64,000 nt of DNA from Geothrix sp. 21YS21S-2 (GTDB lineage: Bacteria > Acidobacteriota > Holophagae > Holophagales > Holophagaceae), in assembly GCF_030846775.1 (NCBI RefSeq), contig NZ_CP132910.1, positions 3,072,001-3,136,000 on the forward strand, given 5' to 3'. The translations under genes and the position numbers were made by a program. Shown piece by piece: positions 4,283 to 26,989 of this stretch. Position 1 is the first letter of the stretch, and each line of letters begins with the position of its first letter. A model generated the notes under the pieces. The model saw nothing but the letters and a program-made list of their open reading frames with translations, was not told the origin of the DNA and made no database searches.

Positions 4283-5344
4283 TTAGGGAAGGATCAGCCT
4301 CCCGGCCAGATCAAAGCGGAAAGCCAGGGTTTCACCCGCGGGCCAGGAGGTGGGGGCGCGTTCGAGCACAGCCGGATCCGGGTCGCCGACCCTCCCCTCG
4401 AAGGGGTCAACCTCCTTCCATTCGATTTCGTCCAATCCCTGGCCATCGGGCGGCTGGGGGACGGAGCTCCTGGGCGCCTGTTCCAATCGGATGGAGGCCT
4501 CGATCGCCTTCCGGGTCCGCATGGCCACCAGCACCCGGTCGTTGGGCATGGGCTGGATCCCCAGGAGCACGGGGCTGTGCCGCTTCCGCCCCGACAGGCA
4601 GTCGTCGTCCAGCGGCAGGAGTTTGATCGTCCGGGAGGGCCACGGGTCATCGTCCTTGATCACCCAGATGATCCCGGCATTCCAGGAGACCACAAGGAAG
4701 GCCCCCTTCACCTGGATGGGGAACTCCAGGAACGGTAGCAGTCCTTGGTAACGGAGGGCCACCTGGGCAATCCACGCTCCGCCCGGTCCCACCGGATGGA
4801 AGGCCTGGAAGACCGGTACGTCGAGGGCGATGGGAATCAGGGCCTCCGCCTTGAAGACCCCGCCGTTCGTCTGCTTCCACCAGGAGCAGATGGAAGCGTC
4901 CTCCCCTTTCGAAAATCCGGGCATCACATCCATGACGAAAAATCGCGAGCCGGTATCGGTCTGATAGAGCTTCGAAGGCAGTCCGAAAAATTCGTCGCGT
5001 CCGAAGGTCCCGAAATCGATGGGGAAGTTTTCCCAGAGGCCCGGGAGCCTCTGCTGGGAGACCAGGATGGTCTTGTCCACGAGCCGGCAGGTGGTTGCGA
5101 CACCGGCACGGTAGGTCAGGCCCAAGGCGCCCTCGGGCTCTTCAAGGGTTTCCTCCTTTCCTGATGTCTGATCGGCGATTTCGAGCGCACGGCCAAAATC
5201 AAGGGACAGAATGCGCTTCCCACCACTCCAGACGAGGCCCGGCAGGCCGCGGAAACCGGGGTAGTCAGGGGGATCCTGTGGCCAAAGGCAACAAAAAAAG
5301 GTAAGGTAGCAAATAATTGTCTTAATGGATTTTGTCGATTGCAT
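4283..5344 (-). CDS. Exported protein of unknown function
   Basis: A 353-residue protein I do not recognise. It begins with a lysine-containing leader and a hydrophobic, Cys-rich stretch (about residues 8-20, KTIICYLTFFCCLW) that looks like a signal peptide or lipoprotein-like leader. The rest is rich in Trp, Pro and strand-forming segments, with an acidic and proline-rich C-terminal third, suggesting a beta-rich envelope protein. AAGGG lies 8 bases before the ATG. The gene reads leftward, and its first codons lie in the AT-rich patch shared with the small Cys protein at 5481-5759. It converges with nuoF. Confidence 0.6.
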   Translation of the reverse strand: MQSTKSIKTIICYLTFFCCLWPQDPPDYPGFRGLPGLVWSGGKRILSLDFGRALEIADQTSGKEETLEEPEGALGLTYRAGVATTCRLVDKTILVSQQRLPGLWENFPIDFGTFGRDEFFGLPSKLYQTDTGSRFFVMDVMPGFSKGEDASICSWWKQTNGGVFKAEALIPIALDVPVFQAFHPVGPGGAWIAQVALRYQGLLPFLEFPIQVKGAFLVVSWNAGIIWVIKDDDPWPSRTIKLLPLDDDCLSGRKRHSPVLLGIQPMPNDRVLVAMRTRKAIEASIRLEQAPRSSVPQPPDGQGLDEIEWKEVDPFEGRVGDPDPAVLERAPTSWPAGETLAFRFDLAGRLILP

Positions 5345-15874: not shown

Positions 15875-16837
15875 GTGAGGAACGCGCCCCCCGAACCCGA
15901 GCTGCTGACCGATGGGTCCGAGCCCATGGGGGCGGTGCTGCGGGAGCTGGATCTCGTCGCGCAGACCTCCCTGACCGTTCTCATCCTGGGCCCCTCCGGG
16001 AGCGGCAAGGAACTCGCCGCGCGGGAACTGCACCGCCGATCCGGCCGTTCAGGCCCCCTGGTGCCGGTGAACTGCGCGGCCCTGGCCGAAGGGGCGCTGG
16101 AATCCGAGCTCTTCGGCCATGTACGGGGGGCCTTCACGGGCGCCGACCGGGACCGGCCAGGAGCCCTTGTGTCGGCTTCGGGGGGGACCGTCTTCCTTGA
16201 CGAAGTGGCCGACCTATCAGCCCGGACCCAGGCGATGCTGCTAAGAGTTCTGCAAGAAAGCGAGATCCGCCCCCTCGGCAGTGACCGGTGGAGACCGGTG
16301 AACCTGCGATTCGTAGCTGCCACAAATCAGCCCCTGGAGGAGATGGTGCGGACCCGGCTGTACCGGGAGGATCTCCTCCACCGGCTCCAGGGCTCCGTGC
16401 TGGTTACACCGGCTTTGGCGGAACGGGGCCATGAATTCCACTACCTAGTGCCGCGCCTTGTGGAACGCATCTCGCTGGCTCTCGGCCGGAACGGGCCGCC
16501 CTTGGAACCCGGCCTATGCGAGGCGCTTGCCGCCCAGTCCTGGCCTGGCAATGTGCGCCAGCTCCTCCACTGCCTTGAACGCGCCCTCCTAAGGTGCGGG
16601 AAGGGGCCTCTGGGGTCAGAACATTTCCCCGAGCTCGCCAAGGCACCAGGCATCCCGCTGCCTTGGCAGGAAGCCACCCTGGCGTTCCAGCGGCGCCACC
16701 TCCTGGAGTCCCTCGGCCGCAGGGGGTTCCACGCCGCCGAAACGGCCCGGGACCTGGGGCTCAGCCGCACCGCTCTCTACGCCACCGCCCGGCGCCTTGG
16801 GGTGGACCTGGCCCAGGAGCGACGGCGCAAGGGCTGA
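15875..16837 (+). CDS. Sigma-54-dependent transcriptional activator lacking a receiver domain
   Basis: A 320-residue AAA+ enhancer-binding protein. Walker A is GPSGSGKE (about residue 38), the sigma-54 contact loop GAFTGA (about 84), Walker B TVFLDEV (about 104) and the sensor 2 motif WPGNVRQL (about 224). A Fis-type helix-turn-helix ([20 protein letters not shown]) closes the protein. There is no N-terminal sensory domain: the AAA+ domain starts within 20 residues, so activity may be controlled by a partner, as with PspF. It uses a GTG start, 18 bases after the previous stop. Targets are unknown; the nearby genes are candidates. Confidence 0.9.
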
Positions 16838-17208
16838 CCATCGGCGGACACCCCGTGCGCCGGCCGAACGTGGCGGCGGGACCGCCCCCCGGGTAGGCCA
16901 CGCAGGGCCTCAATGGGCTCGCAAGGGCCGGGTAGGCGCCCCTGTCAAGCGTCACAAGTATTGACCACGGGTGGGTCAATGATTAAGTCGGTTGACTGCG
17001 GACGCTGGGTATCGTCCTTCGGACCCCGTGAACCGACAGAAATCCGCCATTCTCGCCCAAGCCCTGGCGGTGGAAGGGAAGGCTGGGCACCCTGGCGGGG
17101 CTCCCCGGCTTTGGCGTATCCTGATCTTCAGCAAAGGTTGTCCTGGATCTTCCATGCAGATAAGTTCGCCCGCCCTGCCAAGGCGCGCCACCCTTCCGGA
17201 GGGCCCCA
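16838..17208. other. Non-coding stretch at the left edge of the lower-G+C island
   Basis: No convincing gene in these 371 bases. Open frames exist but have mixed codon use and no good start. The stretch contains one inverted repeat (16960-16980). G+C falls from the level of the flanking activator gene toward that of the glycosylation genes, so the island boundary is probably here. Confidence 0.5.
16960..16980. repeat. Perfect inverted repeat, possible operator
   Basis: Two 7-base arms (ATTGACC at 16960-16966 and GGTCAAT at 16974-16980) flank a 7-base spacer. There is no T run, so it is not an intrinsic terminator. The 14-base centre-to-centre spacing fits a dimeric regulator site. No linked regulator is evident. 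Confidence 0.35.
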
Positions 17209-17380
17209 ATGACCGAACAACAGGCTGCCCTGGTTGCAGGGGCCCAATGCCCGGGCGGCTGCGGCCTCACGGAAGAAGGTTCTGAACAGGGCAACCGGAT
17301 ATGCGGATTTCAGTTTGGACAGAAGAGTCGCCTGGGTCAGCGGGGCACTAGGTAGAGCGGAAATTGGGGAGGCCCGATGA
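17209..17380 (+). pseudogene. Probable frameshifted small gene coupled to the FkbM gene
   Basis: ATG 17209 has GGAGGG 5 bases upstream and starts MTEQQAALVAGAQ. This frame stops after 48 codons (17353-17355) and has an odd tail. In the +1 frame, an open stretch runs from 17213 to a TGA at 17378-17380 with a more protein-like sequence (AAASRKKVLNRATGYADFSL) and overlaps the ATG of the FkbM gene by 4 bases (ATGA). A single frameshift near 17215-17245 would join a good start to a coupled stop. I infer a decayed or frameshifted ~55-residue gene; the alternative is that neither frame is real. Confidence 0.3.
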
Positions 17381-18003
17381 TTAATTTTTTCAGCCACTTG
17401 CACTCCCGCCGACTCAGGATCAGGAATTTCCTCGAAATCGGTTCCCGGGATGGCGAAGATGCCAATACCTTCGCAAAGGCCGCTGGTATTCGCCAAGTCC
17501 ATGTCATCGAGCCGGCACCTCAGTCCTTTGCGCGGATCCAGGCCCATTTCCCCTTCTTCCAGGTTTACAACCTGGCCTTGTCAAACCGAAACGGGCATCA
17601 GGTGTTTCACAACATTGTCGATCCTGACCTCAATAAGCAGGGAATGAGTTCTCTGATGCCAAGGGAGATCTACGAACGATTCCCCTCGGAGAATATTTTA
17701 GTTGAACTGATGCGGGGCGACACATTTCTCGATAAATATGGGATCCAAGACATTTCAGCATGCAAGATCGATGTCGAAGGCCATGCTGTGGAAGTCCTTG
17801 AAGGTTTTGGGACAGAACTGACTCGCATCCATGCCATCCATCTGGAATGCGAGACGGTGCCGGTTTGGGAGGGCCAGCGACTTTTCGGCGAAGCGAAGGC
17901 ATTGCTGGAAGGAAGGGGCTTCCAGATGGTCAGCTACTGGGAGTACAACCAGCCGACAACCCAATGCGATTCGATTTGGCTCCTGGCCCACAACCGTGCA
18001 TGA
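17377..18003 (+). CDS. FkbM-type SAM-dependent methyltransferase
   Basis: A 208-residue class I methyltransferase of the FkbM type. The SAM loop is FLEIGSRDGEDA near residue 18. IEPAPQSFARIQ is the acidic ribose-binding strand, and ACKIDVEGHAVEVLEGF near residue 128 is the family's KIDVEG signature. FkbM enzymes O-methylate sugars or other small molecules, often in surface glycan gene clusters. It is the first gene of the lower-G+C island. The next gene starts 9 bases after its stop. It is probably cytoplasmic and acts on a nucleotide sugar or glycan of this cluster. Confidence 0.82.
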   Translation: MINFFSHLHSRRLRIRNFLEIGSRDGEDANTFAKAAGIRQVHVIEPAPQSFARIQAHFPFFQVYNLALSNRNGHQVFHNIVDPDLNKQGMSSLMPREIYERFPSENILVELMRGDTFLDKYGIQDISACKIDVEGHAVEVLEGFGTELTRIHAIHLECETVPVWEGQRLFGEAKALLEGRGFQMVSYWEYNQPTTQCDSIWLLAHNRA

Positions 18004-18012
18004 GGAAGCCCA

Positions 18013-19125
18013 ATGCCAATCCTGGAAGATGCCTTCGGCACACGGCGCAAGAAAAAGGCCCTCCTATGTGGCGCGGTAGAAGGTCTTGTGGACAGGGAGT
18101 CCATGAATTTTTTCCACACAAACACCCATGAGGCATTTGAACAAGGATTGGCCCTGCACGAATCGGGCTATTCGGTTGATGCCATCGACCATTGGGCTGA
18201 ACCCCCCCGAGGGTATGGCGAATATGACGTCATCCTGGGCCTCGGGCGGGCCCTGGTCGAGTGCCATTCGGGTGGCCGGCGCCCCAGACGGGTCCTTCTT
18301 TACTCCCCCGGCATCCACAACCAGGTCCAGAATCTCCGCACTCTGGACCGGGTCAAGGCCTTCAGGGAGAGGTATGGCCCCTGCCTCCTGGAGTCCGGTC
18401 GGTTTGCGTCGGAGGATTTCACCTCCATCGCCTCCCTTTGCGATGCAGTGCTGGTCCTCGGCAATGAGGCCACTGCCGCGACTTATCATGGCCGGACCTC
18501 CAGCGAGATTTTCATCATCCGGGCATTTTTCCATCACCTCGTGGACGGGGCGGCCCTCGCCCAGCGGAAGGACCCCAGGAAGGCCGGCCGGGGATTTCTT
18601 TGGTTCGGCAGTGCCGGCCTCATTCACAAGGGTCTCGACCTCCTCCTGGAGGTCTTTCTCGCCCGCCCATGGCTTGAACTTTATGTTTGCGGTCCTCTTG
18701 AAGGGGAAGGGGCCTTTGGACGGGTGTTTCAATCCCGTCTGGCAGCGTCGAGGAATATCCATATGATCGGAATGGTCCGGATTGGAAGTCCTGAGTTCCT
18801 GCGGATCGCGGAACAATGCGGCTTTGCGGTTCTTCCTTCCTGCTCCGAGGGTGGGGGGGTAAGCCTGCTCTCTGCTGTCGGAAACGGTGGACTTCTCCCC
18901 GTGGCAACTCTGGAGGCAAGCGTCGAGCTCGGTACCTTTGGCATTCCCATTGCGGGCTGCAGCGAAGCCCTGGTAGCCCAAGCGATCGAATCGTGCGAAG
19001 TCCTCCCCGTGGAGGAGCGGCTTGCCCGGACCTTGCAAGCAATAGACTTTGTGAATTCCGGCCACACCCTCGAAATGCACCGGAAATCCCTTCGAGCAGC
19101 CCTCTCGACGGTCCTGGCCGAATGA
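18013..19125 (+). CDS. GT-B-type glycosyltransferase
   Basis: A 370-residue protein resembling GT-B glycosyltransferases of the GT4/GT1 type. The second Rossmann-like half is visible as FLWFGSAGLIHKGLDLLLEVF near residue 197 followed by LELYVCGPLEGEG near residue 222, and an E-x-G segment (CSEGGGVSLLSAVGNGG near residue 277) matches the donor-binding region. The first half is less conserved (SMNFFHTNTHEAFEQGL). GAGGA lies 7 bases before the ATG. Together with the FkbM gene and the large enzyme downstream it probably builds or decorates a surface glycan. Donor and acceptor are unknown. Confidence 0.75.
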   Translation: MPILEDAFGTRRKKKALLCGAVEGLVDRESMNFFHTNTHEAFEQGLALHESGYSVDAIDHWAEPPRGYGEYDVILGLGRALVECHSGGRRPRRVLLYSPGIHNQVQNLRTLDRVKAFRERYGPCLLESGRFASEDFTSIASLCDAVLVLGNEATAATYHGRTSSEIFIIRAFFHHLVDGAALAQRKDPRKAGRGFLWFGSAGLIHKGLDLLLEVFLARPWLELYVCGPLEGEGAFGRVFQSRLAASRNIHMIGMVRIGSPEFLRIAEQCGFAVLPSCSEGGGVSLLSAVGNGGLLPVATLEASVELGTFGIPIAGCSEALVAQAIESCEVLPVEERLARTLQAIDFVNSGHTLEMHRKSLRAALSTVLAE

Positions 19126-19193
19126 ACTTGGCGCAAAGCTTGCTCGGTAGGCACTTTGTATGCACCCACGCTATCTAACCCCTGGAGCTTTCC

Positions 19194-22100
19194 ATGCCCG
19201 ACGCTGAGATCCGTGACTTCGAGACATGCTGGTGCGGGGGCAAACTGGTAGATGGAGTCCACCCTGGGTATGGCAGTTGTACGTCCTGTGGAACCCAGGT
19301 GAAATGGACGGGCTATGGCGAACAAGCACTGAAAGCCCTGTATGCATTCGGCCCCTACTGGAACGGCGAAGGCGCGGACCACCCGGAGACGCCTGGCCTG
19401 ATCGCGGAAAGAGCCTTGCATGACTTCAATGACCGGATTCCGGAATGGTTCGAGCGGCTCACCCGGCGCAATGGCGTTCCTGATCGGCTCCTCGAAATCG
19501 GATGTGGTCACGGCGGCTTTCTCCGGTATTGCCTGGATCGCGGCACGAAGCGTGCTGTCGGCGTGGAGGTGGACGAAGCCACTTGCGCATTCGCAAGGAG
19601 GGAATTCGGTCTCGCAGAGGTCTACCCGGGTCTATTCCCTGCCGTCGCCATCCCTGAGCCCCGGTTTGATGCGGTCGTAGCGTTCGATGTGCTCGAACAC
19701 GTGCCGGACCCACTCGGGTTCCTGCGCGGTATTGCTGGGCTGCTGGAGGAGAAGGGCAGGCTCCTGCTGCAGACACCCATCTTTGACGGAGAGGGTGCGG
19801 ACTGGTACCCATTCGAGAGCCCGGCCCACTTGAACTTGTTCTCAGGCAAGGCTTTGGTTCGCCTCTTCGAGGCAGCGGGCCTTGAAGTCCAGGAGCTCCT
19901 TTGGGCGCCGTTCCCGTACGACGCACTCATTTTGGGCCGTAAGGTCAAGGCCTCAGCGGGCGTGCGAATTGCCGGCGAGGGGGCTGGGGATAAGGACCTG
20001 ACCGTGGTTGAGGGCAATTCCGATTTCTCCACCGCCATGGACCGGGTCTTCCGCAACAACCGGCCGGCCAAGGTGCTTGAAACGGGCACTTACCTGGGCA
20101 CCGGTACGACCCGTACCTTGGCCATCCTATTGCGCGACTACAAGATCGATTCCCCCAGGTTCTTCAGCCTTGAAGTGAACCCCTCCAACCATCTGCAGGC
20201 TAAGGAGAACCTTGGAAGAGATGGCCTATTGGCAATGGTGGAACCCCTTCTTGGCCTTTCCGTGCCAAGAACCCGATTGCCGGGGCTGGCGGAAATCGAG
20301 GAGGCCATGGTGAGGAACATGGCCTTCAAGGATGTCTATGTGGACCACCAGGAAAACGAGCGGTCTAGGCTGTACGCCCAGGAAACAGATTTTTCCGAGG
20401 TCCCCGATGATCTTCTCCGCCAATGCCTGAAAGCGTTCGGATATCGGCCTGACCTCGTGCTCCTTGACAGCGGAGGCCATATGGGCTTCGTGGAATTCCA
20501 GTATCTCCTGGAACTCCTTGAAGGCCCTTGCACGATCGCCCTTGACGACGTGTTCCACGTCAAGCACCGGCGAAGCCTCCAGTGCATCCTCGAGGATCCC
20601 CGGTTTGACCTGACCTACCTATCGCGGGAAAAATTCGGGTTCTGCGTGGCGAAATTCGATCCGGGCAGAGTACCGGCCAAGCCCCACGTGGAAAACATCC
20701 TTTGGGTCCGACTGGATGCCGTTGGAGACAACCTTCTTGCCGCCTCCATGCTGGAAGGCGTAAGTGGCCATTTCCCAGATGCCCGGATTACCGTGCTCTG
20801 CCAGCCACGAGTAGCCGAGCTGTACGAGGCATGCCCATTTGCTGATGAAGTCTACCCGGTCGACAAGCAACTGGCTCTGGGTGGAGGCCCCTACCTCCAG
20901 GACCTGATCCGGGACCTGACCCACAGGCACTTCGATCTCTGCCTGCATAGTGTCTACTCAAGGGAGCCGCTGGCGGACGTCCTCACCGGGATGTGCGGGG
21001 CCTTGCGCCGGGTGGGCCACTTCGGGGACGACCATAACCGCAATCCCAGGGAACGGCCGGCTTTGGACGCGTTGTATACGGATCTCGTTCCTGCGCAGGA
21101 GGACTGGGCCTTGGAACTGGATCGACATAAATCCTTCCTCCAATACCTGGGCATCGAACCTAAGGATCTGCAACCAGAGGTCTGGTTCACTCCAGAGGAC
21201 GTCCAGGCGGTCGAAGCCATTTTAGGGGAGGAGAAGCTTCAGGACAGGAAGCTGGTGGCACTCTTTGCGGGGGCCCAATGGGAATCACGGATCTACGAAG
21301 GCTATGGCCTGGCCCTGGCCCCCGTCCTGAAGGACCACCCTGAGCTTGCTGTTGTCGCCCTTGGTGTCGAGGCAGAACAGGGGATCAATCAACGGCACCT
21401 CGACCTGTTCCCGACGGCTGGGGTGAATTTGTGCGGGCGCCTGACACTTCGCCAATGCGCCGCATTGATGAAAAGATGTGCCCTCGCGGTTGGCGCAGAA
21501 ACCGGCCTGGCCCATATGGCCTGCGCGGTTGGCCTCCCGAATGTGGTGGTACTTGGCGGGGGGCACTTCGGCCGGTTCATGCCGTATTCCCCTCTGACGA
21601 CGTGTTCGGTCCTGCCTCTGTCCTGCTATTTGTGCGATTGGAACTGTCCATATGAACGCCCGTATTGCGTCAAGGACCTTTCTCCTGAAGTCCTCACGAG
21701 GGCAGTCAGAACGGCCATGGAAGGCAGATCCGAGGTCCCTCTCCTGGTGGCCCAGGATGGCTGGGAACAAACGTGGAATGGCCCAAACGCAATTGATTTA
21801 AAACCAAACCTGGATCTCGCCAGGGTGGGGCTGGAAACGGTTACCGTGGCCGCGCCCCAGGGCCCTGCACCGGTTCTTTCGCTGGTGGTTCCGTCCATCG
21901 GGCGGCCAAAGCGCCTCGAGGCCATGCTCGCGAGCGCACACGCGTCATTGGGCACCATCCCTTGGGAAGTAATAGGGATCTGCCCCAGCGGCGACCAAAG
22001 CAGCCGGGAGGTATTCCAGAAGATGGGAGCCAGGATTGTTCTGGCGGATGAGGACTACCTGGGCACAGACGGCAAGTTCAGCTGGTCCCTCCTCATGAAC

Positions 22101-23576
22101 GCAGGCTTCGCAAAGGCCAGGGGCAAGTGGGTGATGTATGGCAGCGATGACCTTTTGTTCGAACCCGATTCCTTGCCGCGGCTGCTTGCCTATGGAGAGC
22201 TGGCAGGCATCAAGGTTGGTGGCCTTTCGCTGATGGAACACAACCCCGGCTGGCAGGGGTACCCCGATTGGTGGGCTCCCATGGGGTCCGACGGCTGGTT
22301 GATGATCAACTTCGGGATCGTGCGCAAAACCGCATGGGAGGCCGTGGGGGGATTCTTCCCGGGCTACCATTTCTATGGCGCGGACTGGGATCTCTGTTAC
22401 CGAATCCATGCTGCGGGCTGGCAGATTCTGCCCGTATGGGATGCGCGTGTCCACCACAATCAGGAAGGGGACGAAGTCAAGAAGAGCCATGAAGAGCGAT
22501 GGCAAGAGGATAAGGACCTTATGGAGGCGCGGAAGCACCTTCGCCCTGCACACCAGATCGCGGTCAGTCAGGGCCTGACGGCCCTCGCTGCGGCCGGGGC
22601 CCGGACGTTCGCCGCCAATATCTTTCATGATCAAGTCCGTTCCCTGCTCTCCATGGATGCTGCCCGCTTGACGTCCACACTTGAGCTTTGGCTTGAGTTG
22701 GCACCCAGGGCGGGTTTCCTCTGGGCCTTAAAAGCCGAGTTCCTCGATGGAGACGGAGCCGCCCAGGCCGAGCGGGAAGACTCACTGGAACGGGCCGATG
22801 CCCTCGGATGGGACTTTGGCCACGAAAGCGGCCAGAAGCCATCGCTGGCGCGGGCCACCGTCCTTTGCGCCGTTTGGCACAAGGACCCCGACCGCCTGGA
22901 ACGTCTGCAGGGGCACCAGTCCTGCCTGGATGCCCAGTCCGTAGCGGTGGACCGGATCTATGTCTTCGACGCCGGGGATACCGTCCCCAATTGGTTGAGG
23001 GGAACAGCCCTCGTTTCCCGGGAGCCTCTCAGAATCTATGAAGCCTGGAACCTGGCCCTCAGCCAAGTAAAGACCCCCTTTGTCATCAACCTGAACCTGG
23101 ACGACCGGCTGAACCCGGATGCGGTGGAATTGTTTCTGAAAACCTTGGAGGGGGGGGCGGACCTGGTGGCAGGCGATTGGCGCGTTTGCTTCTCACAGGC
23201 GGAAACGGATGCCGTCACACCGAGCATCCTTGCGAAAGAACTGCCCTTCAATCCCGTCTGGCCCCCTAGCCAAGGGGAGTGCGTAAGACTGGGGAGTGGC
23301 ACCGGAGAACGCGCGACGCTCGGTCCTGCCACCGGATGGCGCACGGCCCTGCACGGCGAATTGGGTCGCTATCCCTTCGCCTTCAATGATGGAAGCACCA
23401 TTAACATCATCGGTGATTCACTTTGGTGGCAACGCCTCCTGTCCAAAGGTAAGCGAGTTCTTCGCTTGCCTGTTATCGTGGGCCGCTATTTCAGCCATCC
23501 CGGAGATCAGGCAGAATTTCGCACCCCTGCCTCCACCGAACATGAAAAAGCCTTGGGCATCGGGGTTATGTGGTAG
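19194..23576 (+). CDS. Giant fusion: two methyltransferases and three glycosyltransferases
   Basis: One uninterrupted 1460-residue frame. Reading order: a zinc-ribbon-like CxC...CxxC (C12, C14, C29, C32); a SAM methyltransferase (LLEIGCGHGGF near 99, FDVLEHVPDP near 164); a second methyltransferase-like unit (VLETGTYLGTGTT near 293, LVLLDSGGHMG near 420, DDVFH near 450); a GT9/heptosyltransferase-like unit (WVRLDAVGDNLLAASML near 503, GAETGLAHMACAVG near 767, CYLCDWNCPYE near 811); a GT2-like unit (SLVVPSIGRPKRLEAML near 897, YGSDDL near 982, GADWDLCYRIH near 1062); and a final GT2-like unit (NLNLDDRLNPDAV near 1297). The DD motifs are the expected metal/donor sites. GGAG lies 7 bases before the ATG. 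Such enzymes are usually separate polypeptides. Domain calls rest on motifs read by eye. Confidence 0.8.
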   Translation: MPDAEIRDFETCWCGGKLVDGVHPGYGSCTSCGTQVKWTGYGEQALKALYAFGPYWNGEGADHPETPGLIAERALHDFNDRIPEWFERLTRRNGVPDRLLEIGCGHGGFLRYCLDRGTKRAVGVEVDEATCAFARREFGLAEVYPGLFPAVAIPEPRFDAVVAFDVLEHVPDPLGFLRGIAGLLEEKGRLLLQTPIFDGEGADWYPFESPAHLNLFSGKALVRLFEAAGLEVQELLWAPFPYDALILGRKVKASAGVRIAGEGAGDKDLTVVEGNSDFSTAMDRVFRNNRPAKVLETGTYLGTGTTRTLAILLRDYKIDSPRFFSLEVNPSNHLQAKENLGRDGLLAMVEPLLGLSVPRTRLPGLAEIEEAMVRNMAFKDVYVDHQENERSRLYAQETDFSEVPDDLLRQCLKAFGYRPDLVLLDSGGHMGFVEFQYLLELLEGPCTIALDDVFHVKHRRSLQCILEDPRFDLTYLSREKFGFCVAKFDPGRVPAKPHVENILWVRLDAVGDNLLAASMLEGVSGHFPDARITVLCQPRVAELYEACPFADEVYPVDKQLALGGGPYLQDLIRDLTHRHFDLCLHSVYSREPLADVLTGMCGALRRVGHFGDDHNRNPRERPALDALYTDLVPAQEDWALELDRHKSFLQYLGIEPKDLQPEVWFTPEDVQAVEAILGEEKLQDRKLVALFAGAQWESRIYEGYGLALAPVLKDHPELAVVALGVEAEQGINQRHLDLFPTAGVNLCGRLTLRQCAALMKRCALAVGAETGLAHMACAVGLPNVVVLGGGHFGRFMPYSPLTTCSVLPLSCYLCDWNCPYERPYCVKDLSPEVLTRAVRTAMEGRSEVPLLVAQDGWEQTWNGPNAIDLKPNLDLARVGLETVTVAAPQGPAPVLSLVVPSIGRPKRLEAMLASAHASLGTIPWEVIGICPSGDQSSREVFQKMGARIVLADEDYLGTDGKFSWSLLMNAGFAKARGKWVMYGSDDLLFEPDSLPRLLAYGELAGIKVGGLSLMEHNPGWQGYPDWWAPMGSDGWLMINFGIVRKTAWEAVGGFFPGYHFYGADWDLCYRIHAAGWQILPVWDARVHHNQEGDEVKKSHEERWQEDKDLMEARKHLRPAHQIAVSQGLTALAAAGARTFAANIFHDQVRSLLSMDAARLTSTLELWLELAPRAGFLWALKAEFLDGDGAAQAEREDSLERADALGWDFGHESGQKPSLARATVLCAVWHKDPDRLERLQGHQSCLDAQSVAVDRIYVFDAGDTVPNWLRGTALVSREPLRIYEAWNLALSQVKTPFVINLNLDDRLNPDAVELFLKTLEGGADLVAGDWRVCFSQAETDAVTPSILAKELPFNPVWPPSQGECVRLGSGTGERATLGPATGWRTALHGELGRYPFAFNDGSTINIIGDSLWWQRLLSKGKRVLRLPVIVGRYFSHPGDQAEFRTPASTEHEKALGIGVMW

Positions 23577-23946
23577 CTCTCCTTGCCAAAAGCCCGTCCG
23601 GATTCAACAATTTCGACAATGGTGGGGCTCCGTGGTGCCCAAGGGTGACGTTGGTGCCAGGCCCCTGGAAGACCTTCACGGTTCTCGCCAGGAGGTGCAC
23701 CGGGAAGTGTCTCCGGCAGTTTGGAGGAACCGCCGGCCAAAGACCGCCGATCCCCAATAAACACCTGAATCTGAAAGCCAAGGAAACGGACGTTCCGGGT
23801 CGCAAGCAGCGTCTCCACCAGCCAAAGGCCGAAAATGCCAATGCAGCCGTTGCACAGGAGCCTTGCTCAGGCCTCGTTTCCCCTCAGTCAGCCTAGGTGC
23901 GTTGGCCCGGATGAGGAGGTTTTGACAAGCGCAATAGCCACATGAT
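23577..23946. other. Non-coding or decayed stretch at the right edge of the island
   Basis: No supported gene in these 370 bases. A plus-strand frame from a GTG at 23570 runs 108 codons to 23896, overlapping the end of the large enzyme, but its composition is basic and irregular. Two leftward frames (to 23818 and 23841) also stay open but lack a start context and recognisable motifs. I read it as gene debris between the island and mutL. Confidence 0.4.
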
Positions 23947-25710
23947 CTAAGCCCGCCGCCCGAAGCTCCGCTCCAGCTCCGTCCGCGTCAGTTTCTTGAT
24001 CACCGGCCGCCCATGGGGGCACGTGTGCGGCACCTCGCAGGCCATGAGGTCCTCGATGAGGCGCTGGGCAAGGTCGGCCGGGAGGTGGTGGTGCTTCTTG
24101 ATGGCGCTGCGGCAGCTGAGCTCGGCGTTGAGCTCCCGGCGGAAGTGGTCCAGGTCCACCCGGCCCAGCTCCTCCAGGCGCTGGAGCAGGTCGGCCAGCA
24201 GGGCCTCGGGGTCCCGGTCCATGAGGAAGTCCGGCAGGCCGCGGACCACCACGGCGTCCTCGGCGAAGGGCTCCACCTCCATGCCGGCTTCGGTGAAGGC
24301 GTCCAGAAAGGGGGTCAGGCGAGACATGGCCTCGGGGCCCACGCGCACCACCCGGGGGGGCATAAGGGGTTGCACGGCAGGCTGGTGTTTGCGGAGGAAG
24401 TGGCGCTCGTAGAGGATGCGCTCGTGGGCCACGTGCTGGTCCACCAGCCACAGTTCGGGTTCGGCGCCGCCGGTCACCTCGGCCAGGAGGTAGGTGGAAT
24501 CGAAGGAACCCAGGTAGCGCACGGCGGGCCCATGGAGGGGTTCCGCCACACGGGCGGGTTCCTCCCGGCGGGGGAAGGCCGCTTCCAGGGCCTGGTAGGT
24601 GCCGGTGCCGGCCGAGCCCGCGGCGGACCACAGGTGGGGGTGTTCGGCGGCCACGGGGGCCAGGGGGCGGTCCAGTTCCGGTTCCAGGGGGCGGGGGGGG
24701 AGGTCCAGCACGGAGGCCAGGCCGCCGCGCAGTTCGCTCCAGGCCTCGCGAAGGGCCCGGCCCACCCAGGGGAAGATGCGCTGGGGCTCCCGGAACCGCA
24801 CTTCGGCCTTGGTGGGGTGGACGTTCACGTCCACCGCGTCGGCGGGCACGTCCAGGAAGACCACGGCGGCGGGATAGGAGCCCTTGGGGAAAAATCCCTC
24901 CCAGGCCGAGGCCAGGGCCGCCAGCAGCAGGCGGTCCCGCACGGCGCGGCCGTTGACGAAGAGGTAGAGGTGGTTGCGGTCCCGGAAGCTGAGCTCGGGG
25001 GGGGACACGTAGCCGTGGAGGGTCCAGGGGGCCGTGCCGTCCCGGAAGGGGACCAGGGCGGTGAGCTTGTCGCCCAGGAGGGGCCCCAGGCGGGCGCCGG
25101 CTACCGGGACGGCGGGGAGGGCGAGGCGGCCGCTGCGGTCGGATTCCAGCACCCAGTGGATGGCGGGCGTGGCCAGGGCCATGCGGGTCACCACGCCCCA
25201 CAGGTGGGCGTGCTCGGTCTCGGTGGCCTTGAGGAAGCGCTTGCGGGCCGGGAGCTGGGCGAAGAGGTCCCGCACGGTGATCGTGGTGCCCCGGGACCGG
25301 CTGAAGGGCTGCACCTCCTTGATGACGCCGAACTCGCACCGCAGGCGGTGGCCGGCGCCGTCCTGCTCGGCCGAGGCCATGTCGAAGCGGCTCACGGAGG
25401 CGATGGAGGGCAGCGCCTCGCCCCGGAAACCGAAGGAGGCCAGGTGGCCCAGGTCGTCGGCCGTGCGCACCTTGCTGGTGGCGTGGCGCTCCAGGGCCAT
25501 GTACAGGTCGTCCCGGGCCATGCCGCAGCCGTCGTCGGCCACGTCCAGCATGCGCTTGCCGCCCTCCTCCCAGCGCACCTCCAGGCGGGTGGCGCCGGCG
25601 TCCAGGGCGTTCTCCACCAGTTCCTTGAGCACGGAGGCGGGACGCTCCACCACTTCGCCCGCGGCGATCTGGTTGGCCACCTGGTCGGGAAGGACGCGGA
25701 TGCGGGGCAT
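23947..25710 (-). CDS. mutL: DNA mismatch repair protein MutL
   Basis: A 587-residue MutL. The GHKL ATPase motifs are VENALDAGA near residue 33, DDGCGM near 59 and GFRGEALPS near 93. The C-terminal domain carries DQHVAHERILYE near residue 425, matching the DQHA(x)2E(x)4E endonuclease motif with A to V, and CPHGRP near the C-terminus, so this is the endonuclease-type MutL, not the E. coli type. A proline-rich linker (about 325-390) joins the halves. The start lies 1 base after the stop of the upstream glycosyltransferase gene, so the two are coupled. mutS is not in the window. Confidence 0.95.
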   Translation of the reverse strand: MPRIRVLPDQVANQIAAGEVVERPASVLKELVENALDAGATRLEVRWEEGGKRMLDVADDGCGMARDDLYMALERHATSKVRTADDLGHLASFGFRGEALPSIASVSRFDMASAEQDGAGHRLRCEFGVIKEVQPFSRSRGTTITVRDLFAQLPARKRFLKATETEHAHLWGVVTRMALATPAIHWVLESDRSGRLALPAVPVAGARLGPLLGDKLTALVPFRDGTAPWTLHGYVSPPELSFRDRNHLYLFVNGRAVRDRLLLAALASAWEGFFPKGSYPAAVVFLDVPADAVDVNVHPTKAEVRFREPQRIFPWVGRALREAWSELRGGLASVLDLPPRPLEPELDRPLAPVAAEHPHLWSAAGSAGTGTYQALEAAFPRREEPARVAEPLHGPAVRYLGSFDSTYLLAEVTGGAEPELWLVDQHVAHERILYERHFLRKHQPAVQPLMPPRVVRVGPEAMSRLTPFLDAFTEAGMEVEPFAEDAVVVRGLPDFLMDRDPEALLADLLQRLEELGRVDLDHFRRELNAELSCRSAIKKHHHLPADLAQRLIEDLMACEVPHTCPHGRPVIKKLTRTELERSFGRRA

Positions 25711-25711
25711 G

Positions 25712-26989
25712 TCAGCAGAGCTCCAGGAGTCGGGTGAGATCGGGGTGGCCGGGGAAGGCCGCCAGGCCCAGGGTGATGACCTGGCGCCCCTCGGCCGCGG
25801 CGCCCTGGCGCAGGAGGAAGATGCCCACGAGCTTGTGCCAGCTGCCGTCGCCCCCCTGGGGGCAGTGCTGGATGGCTACCCAGGCGTCCCGGACGGCCTG
25901 CTCCAGCAGGCCCTCCTCCACGCCCAGGCGCACGAGGCGGCCCCACAGGGAGGCGTCCGATGGCGCGGCCTCCAGGCCGGCCAGCAGGACGGTCCGGGCC
26001 GCGTCCTGGGCGCCGGCCCTCGCGTGGAGGTCGGCCAGGTCCAGGTACGCCGTGGTGTAGCCGGGGGACTCCCGGATGCAGGCCTCCAGGAGGGCCCGGG
26101 CCTCCTCGCGGCGCCCCAGGCGCTCCAGGGAGACCCCCCGGCCCACGGCGGCGGGGATGCTGCCGGGAAGCTCGGCGAAGACCCGCAGGGCCTCCTCGTG
26201 GCGCCCGCTGCGCTGGAGCGCGGTGCCGTGGGTGAGGCGCAGGGTCGGGGGGACCTCCGGCGACAGGGCGCGATAGCGTTCGGCGGTGCGGACGGCCAGC
26301 TCCCAGTCCTCGGCGGCGGCGGCCTGGATCACCACGTTGAAGAGGCTCAGGAGGTCCTCCGGGCGGTCCTGGGCGTCCTTCAGGGCCAGGTCCAGGTACA
26401 CGGGCTTCTTGGCCTCCACGCGGTCGGCGAGGGTGAAGCCGTAGTGGTGGATCACCGTGTCCAGGTCCGGGAGGGGACCCGGGAAGGAGGCCTCAACGCT
26501 CTCGTGGATGCGGCCCCGGAAGGCCACGCCCGGAAGGCGCCTGAAGAGCCGAACGGCCCGGGTGTCGCCGCAGGCCGGCCAGGAAGCCCCCTCGGCATAC
26601 CCGCCGGGGTTGGGCCGGGCCTGGGTGTCCATCATCGTGTAGGCGGCGTCGGGCAGGTAGCTGCGGATGAGCACCCGGTAGGCGTCGGCGCCCCCGCAGG
26701 CCGCGCGCAGGGCGGCGTGGTCCCTGGGATCCACGGCCTCGTCGGCGTCCAGCACCAGCACCCAGTCGCCCGTGGCGTGGGCCAGGCTGGCGTTGCGGGC
26801 CGCGGAGAAGTCGCCGTTCCAGGGGAACGGGTGCACCGCGGCGCCCCTGGCCCGGGCCAGGGCCACGGTGCCGTCGGTGGAGCCGGTGTCCACCACGACG
26901 ATCTCGTCCACGAGGCCCCGGACGGAGTCCAGGCAGTGGCCCAGGTGGGCCTCCTCGTCCTTCACGATCATCGAAAGCGACAGCTTCAT
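25712..26989 (-). CDS. GT2 glycosyltransferase with C-terminal TPR repeats
   Basis: A 425-residue protein. Residues 1-110 are a GT2 (GT-A fold) catalytic core: SLSMIVKDEEAHLGHCLDSV, VDTGSTDGT near residue 34, the metal-binding region LVLDADEAV near residue 77. This form (SCDSV-type start, W-x-F/G-D-F-S-x-A-R-N) is common in SunS/lipopolysaccharide-core-like GT2 proteins with TPR tails. Residues 210-420 are TPR repeats (RSGRHEEALRVFAELPG, RLGRREEARALLEACI). It precedes mutL by one base on the same strand. It might glycosylate a protein or envelope glycan; the acceptor is unknown. Confidence 0.85.
   Translation of the reverse strand: MKLSLSMIVKDEEAHLGHCLDSVRGLVDEIVVVDTGSTDGTVALARARGAAVHPFPWNGDFSAARNASLAHATGDWVLVLDADEAVDPRDHAALRAACGGADAYRVLIRSYLPDAAYTMMDTQARPNPGGYAEGASWPACGDTRAVRLFRRLPGVAFRGRIHESVEASFPGPLPDLDTVIHHYGFTLADRVEAKKPVYLDLALKDAQDRPEDLLSLFNVVIQAAAAEDWELAVRTAERYRALSPEVPPTLRLTHGTALQRSGRHEEALRVFAELPGSIPAAVGRGVSLERLGRREEARALLEACIRESPGYTTAYLDLADLHARAGAQDAARTVLLAGLEAAPSDASLWGRLVRLGVEEGLLEQAVRDAWVAIQHCPQGGDGSWHKLVGIFLLRQGAAAEGRQVITLGLAAFPGHPDLTRLLELC

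Follow-up and report, generated by a model that had tools for sequence, protein, structure and literature searches.

The window examined here, a 64,000-nucleotide stretch of Geothrix sp. 21YS21S-2 (contig NZ_CP132910.1, positions 3,072,001 to 3,136,000), encodes a 1460-residue protein that joins two methyltransferase units and three glycosyltransferase (GT) units in one chain. This protein is probably a soluble, multi-module surface-glycan enzyme, predicted to work together with the products of the two genes immediately before its own, an FkbM methyltransferase and a GT-B enzyme. Its gene is the following:

19194-23576, plus strand: five-unit fusion protein, 1460 residues, a single open reading frame from ATG to stop

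A preliminary description of this DNA, made from its letters alone, had proposed one uninterrupted frame of that length, and the coordinates agree exactly. As far as is visible without reads, the gene encodes an uninterrupted single chain. The genome is one contig of 5.25 Mb with a single full-length copy, and the guanine-plus-cytosine content (GC) by codon position has a coding-like pattern in every tenth of the gene, with no shift along it. An assembly error or frameshift uniting separate genes is therefore extremely improbable, although the zinc-ribbon methyltransferase and GT9 units are separate neighbouring genes of a glycan locus in another genome (L033). Moreover, a metagenome-assembled genome (MAG) of another species in the same genus, Holophagaceae MAG UBA706, encodes a GT9 fused to a homologue of the last GT2 through a similar linker (L026:4270-8169).

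Along the chain, a zinc-ribbon Methyltransf_23 unit is followed by a unit resembling catechol O-methyltransferase (COMT) and Methyltransf_24; then come one GT9 and two GT2 units, the latter two separated by a short helical linker:

19227-19289, plus strand: zinc ribbon CxC-x14-CxxC, residues 12-32 (motif)
19431-19895, plus strand: unit 1, class I S-adenosylmethionine (SAM) methyltransferase, Methyltransf_23, residues 80-234 (Pfam and motif)
20001-20663, plus strand: unit 2, COMT/Methyltransf_24-like methyltransferase, about residues 270-490 (sub-threshold Pfam match, phmmer, hhalign)
20673-21758, plus strand: unit 3, GT9/heptosyltransferase-like GT-B unit, about residues 494-855 (Pfam, NCBIfam, relatives)
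21759-21857, plus strand: linker after GT9, residues 856-888, resembling the linker of the L026 fused protein (alignments)
21861-22583, plus strand: unit 4, GT2, about residues 890-1130 (Pfam PF13641, motifs)
22653-22817, plus strand: helical linker of three to four helices, tetratricopeptide repeat (TPR)-like in appearance, about residues 1154-1208 (AlphaFold model)
22848-23573, plus strand: unit 5, GT2, residues 1219-1460 (conservation among relatives, fold match)

Profile searches and motifs place each of the five blocks in, or near, the class that the preliminary description had named, and its block limits lie close to those found, with residues at about 1150-1205 forming the helical linker. 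Active-site motifs are recognisable and apparently intact in all five units, and neither outcome that the description had named as refuting it was observed. A sequence scan revealed no strongly hydrophobic segment in the protein, hence its reading as soluble. An origin of the units by duplication was rejected, as blastp gave no significant similarity between the two methyltransferases or between the two GT2 units.

The zinc-ribbon start and SAM methyltransferase expected from the preliminary reading were both recovered and together span residues 1-255. Unit 1 matches Methyltransf_23 with a Pfam E value of 5.1e-26 (91.8 bits against a cut-off of 27), which makes it a member of that family, and carries the glycine-rich motif I LLEIGCGHGG at residues 99-108. 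Its closest relatives are stand-alone genes in two members of the bacterial family (L033 and L035), which are 44-45% identical and have the same ribbon.

The second methyltransferase-like unit is confirmed in kind and left without family membership. Searched alone, unit 2 reaches only E 0.01 against Pfam Methyltransf_24 (17.2 bits, curated cut-off 26.3), and because it falls below that cut-off it is named Methyltransf_24-like. Its homology is nonetheless visible in a phmmer match to catechol O-methyltransferase (E 0.001) and in a profile-profile comparison with a home-built Methyltransf_24 profile, made from Methyltransf_24 proteins of relatives, where hhalign gave 90% probability and E 1.8e-6 over 135 columns. 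In the same comparison unit 1, itself a methyltransferase, scored 77%, while the GT units, five shuffled sequences and the reversed sequence scored at most 1% with E values of 0.05 or worse. The alignment takes in motif I, the aspartate of strand 4 and the D-D pair. The motifs of the unit are VLETGTYLGTGT at residue 294, DLVLLD at 420 and IALDD at 448; the E-x-G motif I, an acidic strand 2, the D after strand 4 and a D-[DN] pair are all present. A single-sequence AlphaFold model of unit 2 had a predicted local distance difference test score (pLDDT) of 41 and was not used.

The heptosyltransferase-like and two GT2-like units anticipated earlier were likewise found. Unit 3 matches PF01075 with E 4e-15 in the full chain (residues 646-814) and E 4.7e-16 alone. 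NCBIfam TIGR02201 (heptosyltransferase III) aligns over residues 502-799, and thus over both GT-B halves, with E 1e-15, below the equivalog cut-off. With 37-43% identity to stand-alone and fused relatives and GT9 motifs present, unit 3 belongs to GT9. Unit 4 gives a GT2 match at residues 895-1098 (E 3e-9 in the full chain); alone it matches PF13641 with E 3.9e-11 (43.9 bits, cut-off 27), and it carries GSDD at 983-986 and the catalytic-region GADWD at 1062-1066. Its model was poor in an AlphaFold prediction of the GT2-GT2 part because usable homologues were not found, and its assignment to GT2 rests on the profile and motifs. The helical linker, with a block pLDDT of about 44-75, has no Pfam match. 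Unit 5 was modelled better, with block pLDDT mostly above 80. Alone it matches Pfam GT2 with E 6e-6, and a fold search of the GT2-GT2 model, covering mainly model residues 336-581, returned WrtF and heparosan synthase 2 (GT-A/GT2) with Z scores of about 20. Compared with seven other loci it is 48-59% identical, and D1303 and D1304 (in NLDD, 1301-1304), D1408 and H1435 are invariant in the eight sequences. The GT-A fold, conserved DXD and catalytic acidic residue establish it as a GT2.

These motifs bear on the possibility that some units are inactive leftovers of gene fusion and that the protein acts as one or two enzymes only. Such a reading draws on unit 2, which lies below the Pfam cut-off and is without family relatives, and on the gain and loss of units among relatives. 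It is quite unlikely, as unit 2 keeps motif I, its acidic residues and the D-D pair, both GT2 units retain DXD and catalytic-region acids, the GT9 motifs are present and codon-position GC is coding-like throughout.

The fusion is the last of three genes that lie on one strand in the order FkbM, GT-B, fusion, with gaps of 9 bp between the first two and 68 bp before the third:

17377-18003, plus strand: FkbM-family methyltransferase, first gene of the cassette (TIGR01444, E 3.9e-19; PF05050, E 7.9e-17)
18013-19125, plus strand: GT-B (GT4-like) glycosyltransferase of the cassette (Pfam Glyco_trans_1_4, E 0.0035, below the curated cut-off)

GC at third codon positions (GC3) is 0.62-0.70 in these three genes and near 0.9 in most neighbours; the cassette is compositionally foreign and was probably acquired. 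In the proposed function, the GT9 unit and the two GT2 units would extend a growing cytoplasmic glycan by one sugar apiece, up to three in all, while the two SAM methyltransferase units would cap this glycan or place methyl groups on its sugars, with up to two methylations. The FkbM methyltransferase and GT-B enzyme of the same acquired cassette would act as partners, and the fusion would keep the presumed activities together in their presumed order. The single chain might also act as an assembly line that hands substrates from unit to unit.

Several findings weigh against this proposal. The cassette carries no gene for an initiating glycosyltransferase, a flippase, an exporter or sugar-nucleotide synthesis that would point to the pathway or to the acceptor, for which a lipid-linked glycan, the lipopolysaccharide core or a protein are candidates. 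For unit 2, searches of 77 genomes of the family gave no other match and searches of 297 genomes of the phylum a single weak one, and because such matches are so scarce its activity is the least certain of the five. The partnership with FkbM is also uneven. An FkbM gene lies in the cassette of, adjoins (as in L026 and L028) or is fused to five of the eight loci with the C-terminal GT2, and was not found near the other three (L027, L029 and L032). As FkbM also occurs in L049 and L051, two of a further eight glycan loci that were inspected, the link between FkbM and unit 5 is suggestive only, the two mutually related fusions excepted.

Single chains that combine a methyltransferase with glycosyltransferases have precedents. 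WsaE of Geobacillus stearothermophilus NRS 2004/3a, which acts in surface-layer glycan synthesis, contains a methyltransferase and two rhamnosyltransferase domains (PMC2943079). Like the fusion, it is a single soluble protein that starts with a methyltransferase and continues with GT domains, and its product is a surface glycan; the fusion differs in its second methyltransferase, its GT9 and two GT2 units, and in a cassette without Wzm/Wzt. ORF6 of Klebsiella pneumoniae O7, whose product is passed to an ABC transporter, consists of a methyltransferase-kinase, a coiled-coil and, at the C-terminus, two GT2 modules (PMC11231755). It resembles the fusion as a large multidomain chain with an N-terminal methyltransferase and two GT2 modules, whereas the fusion has a second methyltransferase and a GT9. 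Chondroitin polymerase K4CP and heparosan synthase 2 have two GT domains per chain and match unit 5 in fold, with no methyltransferase or GT9. A search of the literature for fusions of GT9 with methyltransferases yielded no case closer than WsaE and O7 ORF6. Methyltransferase-GT fusions are thus already known, and it is the two methyltransferases and the GT9 that set this one apart. The preliminary suggestion of an undescribed system was too strong, both for these established chains and for the partial orders found in relatives.

The same precedents raise the alternative that the fusion is a polymerase-terminator of an ABC-transporter-dependent polysaccharide, in which GT units polymerise the repeat and methyltransferases cap it. 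WsaE and O7 ORF6 each begin with a methyltransferase and end with two GT modules, and the fusion likewise combines methyltransferases with GTs in a single chain. It nevertheless departs from that type in having two methyltransferases and three GT units, the latter of two folds, and the Wzt_C carbohydrate-binding domain (PF14524) has no match in the whole genome. Since two Wzy_C proteins are encoded instead, the ABC-transporter type is less likely, and on balance it is improbable.

Another target for the fusion would be a protein (flagellin, pilin or surface-layer protein) modified with a short methylated oligosaccharide. FkbM methyltransferases and large GTs of several domains are frequent in flagellin glycosylation islands. 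Three flagellin-domain matches occur in the genome and the cassette lacks a lipid-carrier gene, both of which suit this alternative, but the matches lie at genome coordinates 3380220, 359066 and 209319, away from the island near 3091000, in which no flagellin gene was found. The sugar-nucleotide pathways of the sister islands (NeuB, epimerase) fit lipopolysaccharide (LPS) or capsule loci, though they are present in flagellin-glycan loci too. Protein modification therefore seems unlikely, and a surface-glycan enzyme remains the preferred reading of the fusion.

Apart from the fusion, a stand-alone Methyltransf_24 gene (L099, genome coordinates 361094-361414) lies about 1.6 kb from the flagellin gene at 359066 and is perhaps part of a flagellin-glycan locus.

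Relatives of the fusion share its parts in other combinations. The L026 protein is 43% identical to it in the GT9 and 59% in the C-terminal GT2; about 330 residues, the middle GT2/helical block, are missing from it, and its N-terminus differs (no Pfam match; GT-B-like by eye). Modules have thus been gained and lost, and in this pair, encoded beside the same conserved gene, mutL, entire modules have changed around a preserved joint. Homologues of unit 5 stand alone in L028, L029 and L032, and in two Alphaproteobacteria (L030:7368-8735 and L031:7389-8768) an N-terminal FkbM replaces all other units and precedes a C-terminal GT2 from the family of unit 5, to which it is 48-54% identical. A 787-residue chain from another Acidobacteriota family (L080:577-2940) has the order Methyltransf_23, Methyltransf_24, then GT2, as the fusion does; it differs in having one GT2 and no GT9 that could be found, and is distant in sequence. 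The full five-unit order was absent from 60 relatives searched with the whole protein, from contigs of about 85,000 species and from phylum samples searched with single units, although distant cases may escape, the scan of species' contigs being peptide-seeded and catching close relatives only.

Two other large chains came to light among these loci. One, from the same genus (L093:421-2922), has 833 residues with Methyltransf_24 followed by GT2, its first 350 residues being without a Pfam match. The other stands in L027 (3370-8732), where an 815-residue protein whose C-terminal part looks ligase-like by eye precedes a 973-residue chain that has a carrier-protein-like region (sub-threshold), a TPR region and a GT2 at its C-terminus. 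The pair resembles acyl loading coupled to a glycan enzyme.

The cassette occupies a defined interval between two conserved flanks:

15875-16837, plus strand: sigma-54-dependent regulator, left flank of the island (Pfam; in L048 an orthologue with 65% identity borders an island of other content)
23947-25710, minus strand: mutL, bounding the island on the right (present in each of the six genomes of the genus, the others having different glycan genes next to it)

L048 has these two flanks as well, with about 11.6 kb of other glycan genes between them, encoding a haloacid dehalogenase (HAD)-type protein, a Methyltransf_24 protein, a GT2 and a cytidylyltransferase. In L036, which shares a contig with L026, and in L049-L052, mutL is followed by yet other gene sets, including NeuB, UDP-GlcNAc 2-epimerase and DegT aminotransferase. 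Because sister species hold differing glycan genes there, the interval between the sigma-54 regulator and mutL (16838-23946) is a hypervariable glycan island, of which the cassette is one content. Scans for repeats at the island boundaries gave weak matches only, and promoter and terminator scans nothing clear. A viral or phage origin was rejected, with no phage match and with viral contigs giving only 23-27% identical relatives of the last unit, as was a plasmid origin, for which matches were generic (22-40% identity).

Hypervariable glycan islands are well known in pathogens; here one is found in Acidobacteriota. The family of fused methyltransferase-glycosyltransferase enzymes is also enlarged by a protein of five units, among them two methyltransferases and a GT9. 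More tentatively, all five units might act in sequence on one acceptor, a single polypeptide making a complete, doubly methylated trisaccharide, and the island, which varies between species, might alter the surface glycan by exchanging entire modules of such single-chain enzymes. If active, the fusion would be a compact subject for testing substrate passing by fused sugar- and methyl-adding steps and a source of modules for glycan engineering.

Two further genes of the window may be mentioned. A GT2-like protein (by eye) at 25712-26989 on the minus strand adjoins mutL and is kept at that place in L048, L049 and L050. At 4283-5344, also on the minus strand, a 353-residue open reading frame with no Pfam match lies in a patch of lower GC (0.58), has a GC3 of 0.77 and was possibly acquired.

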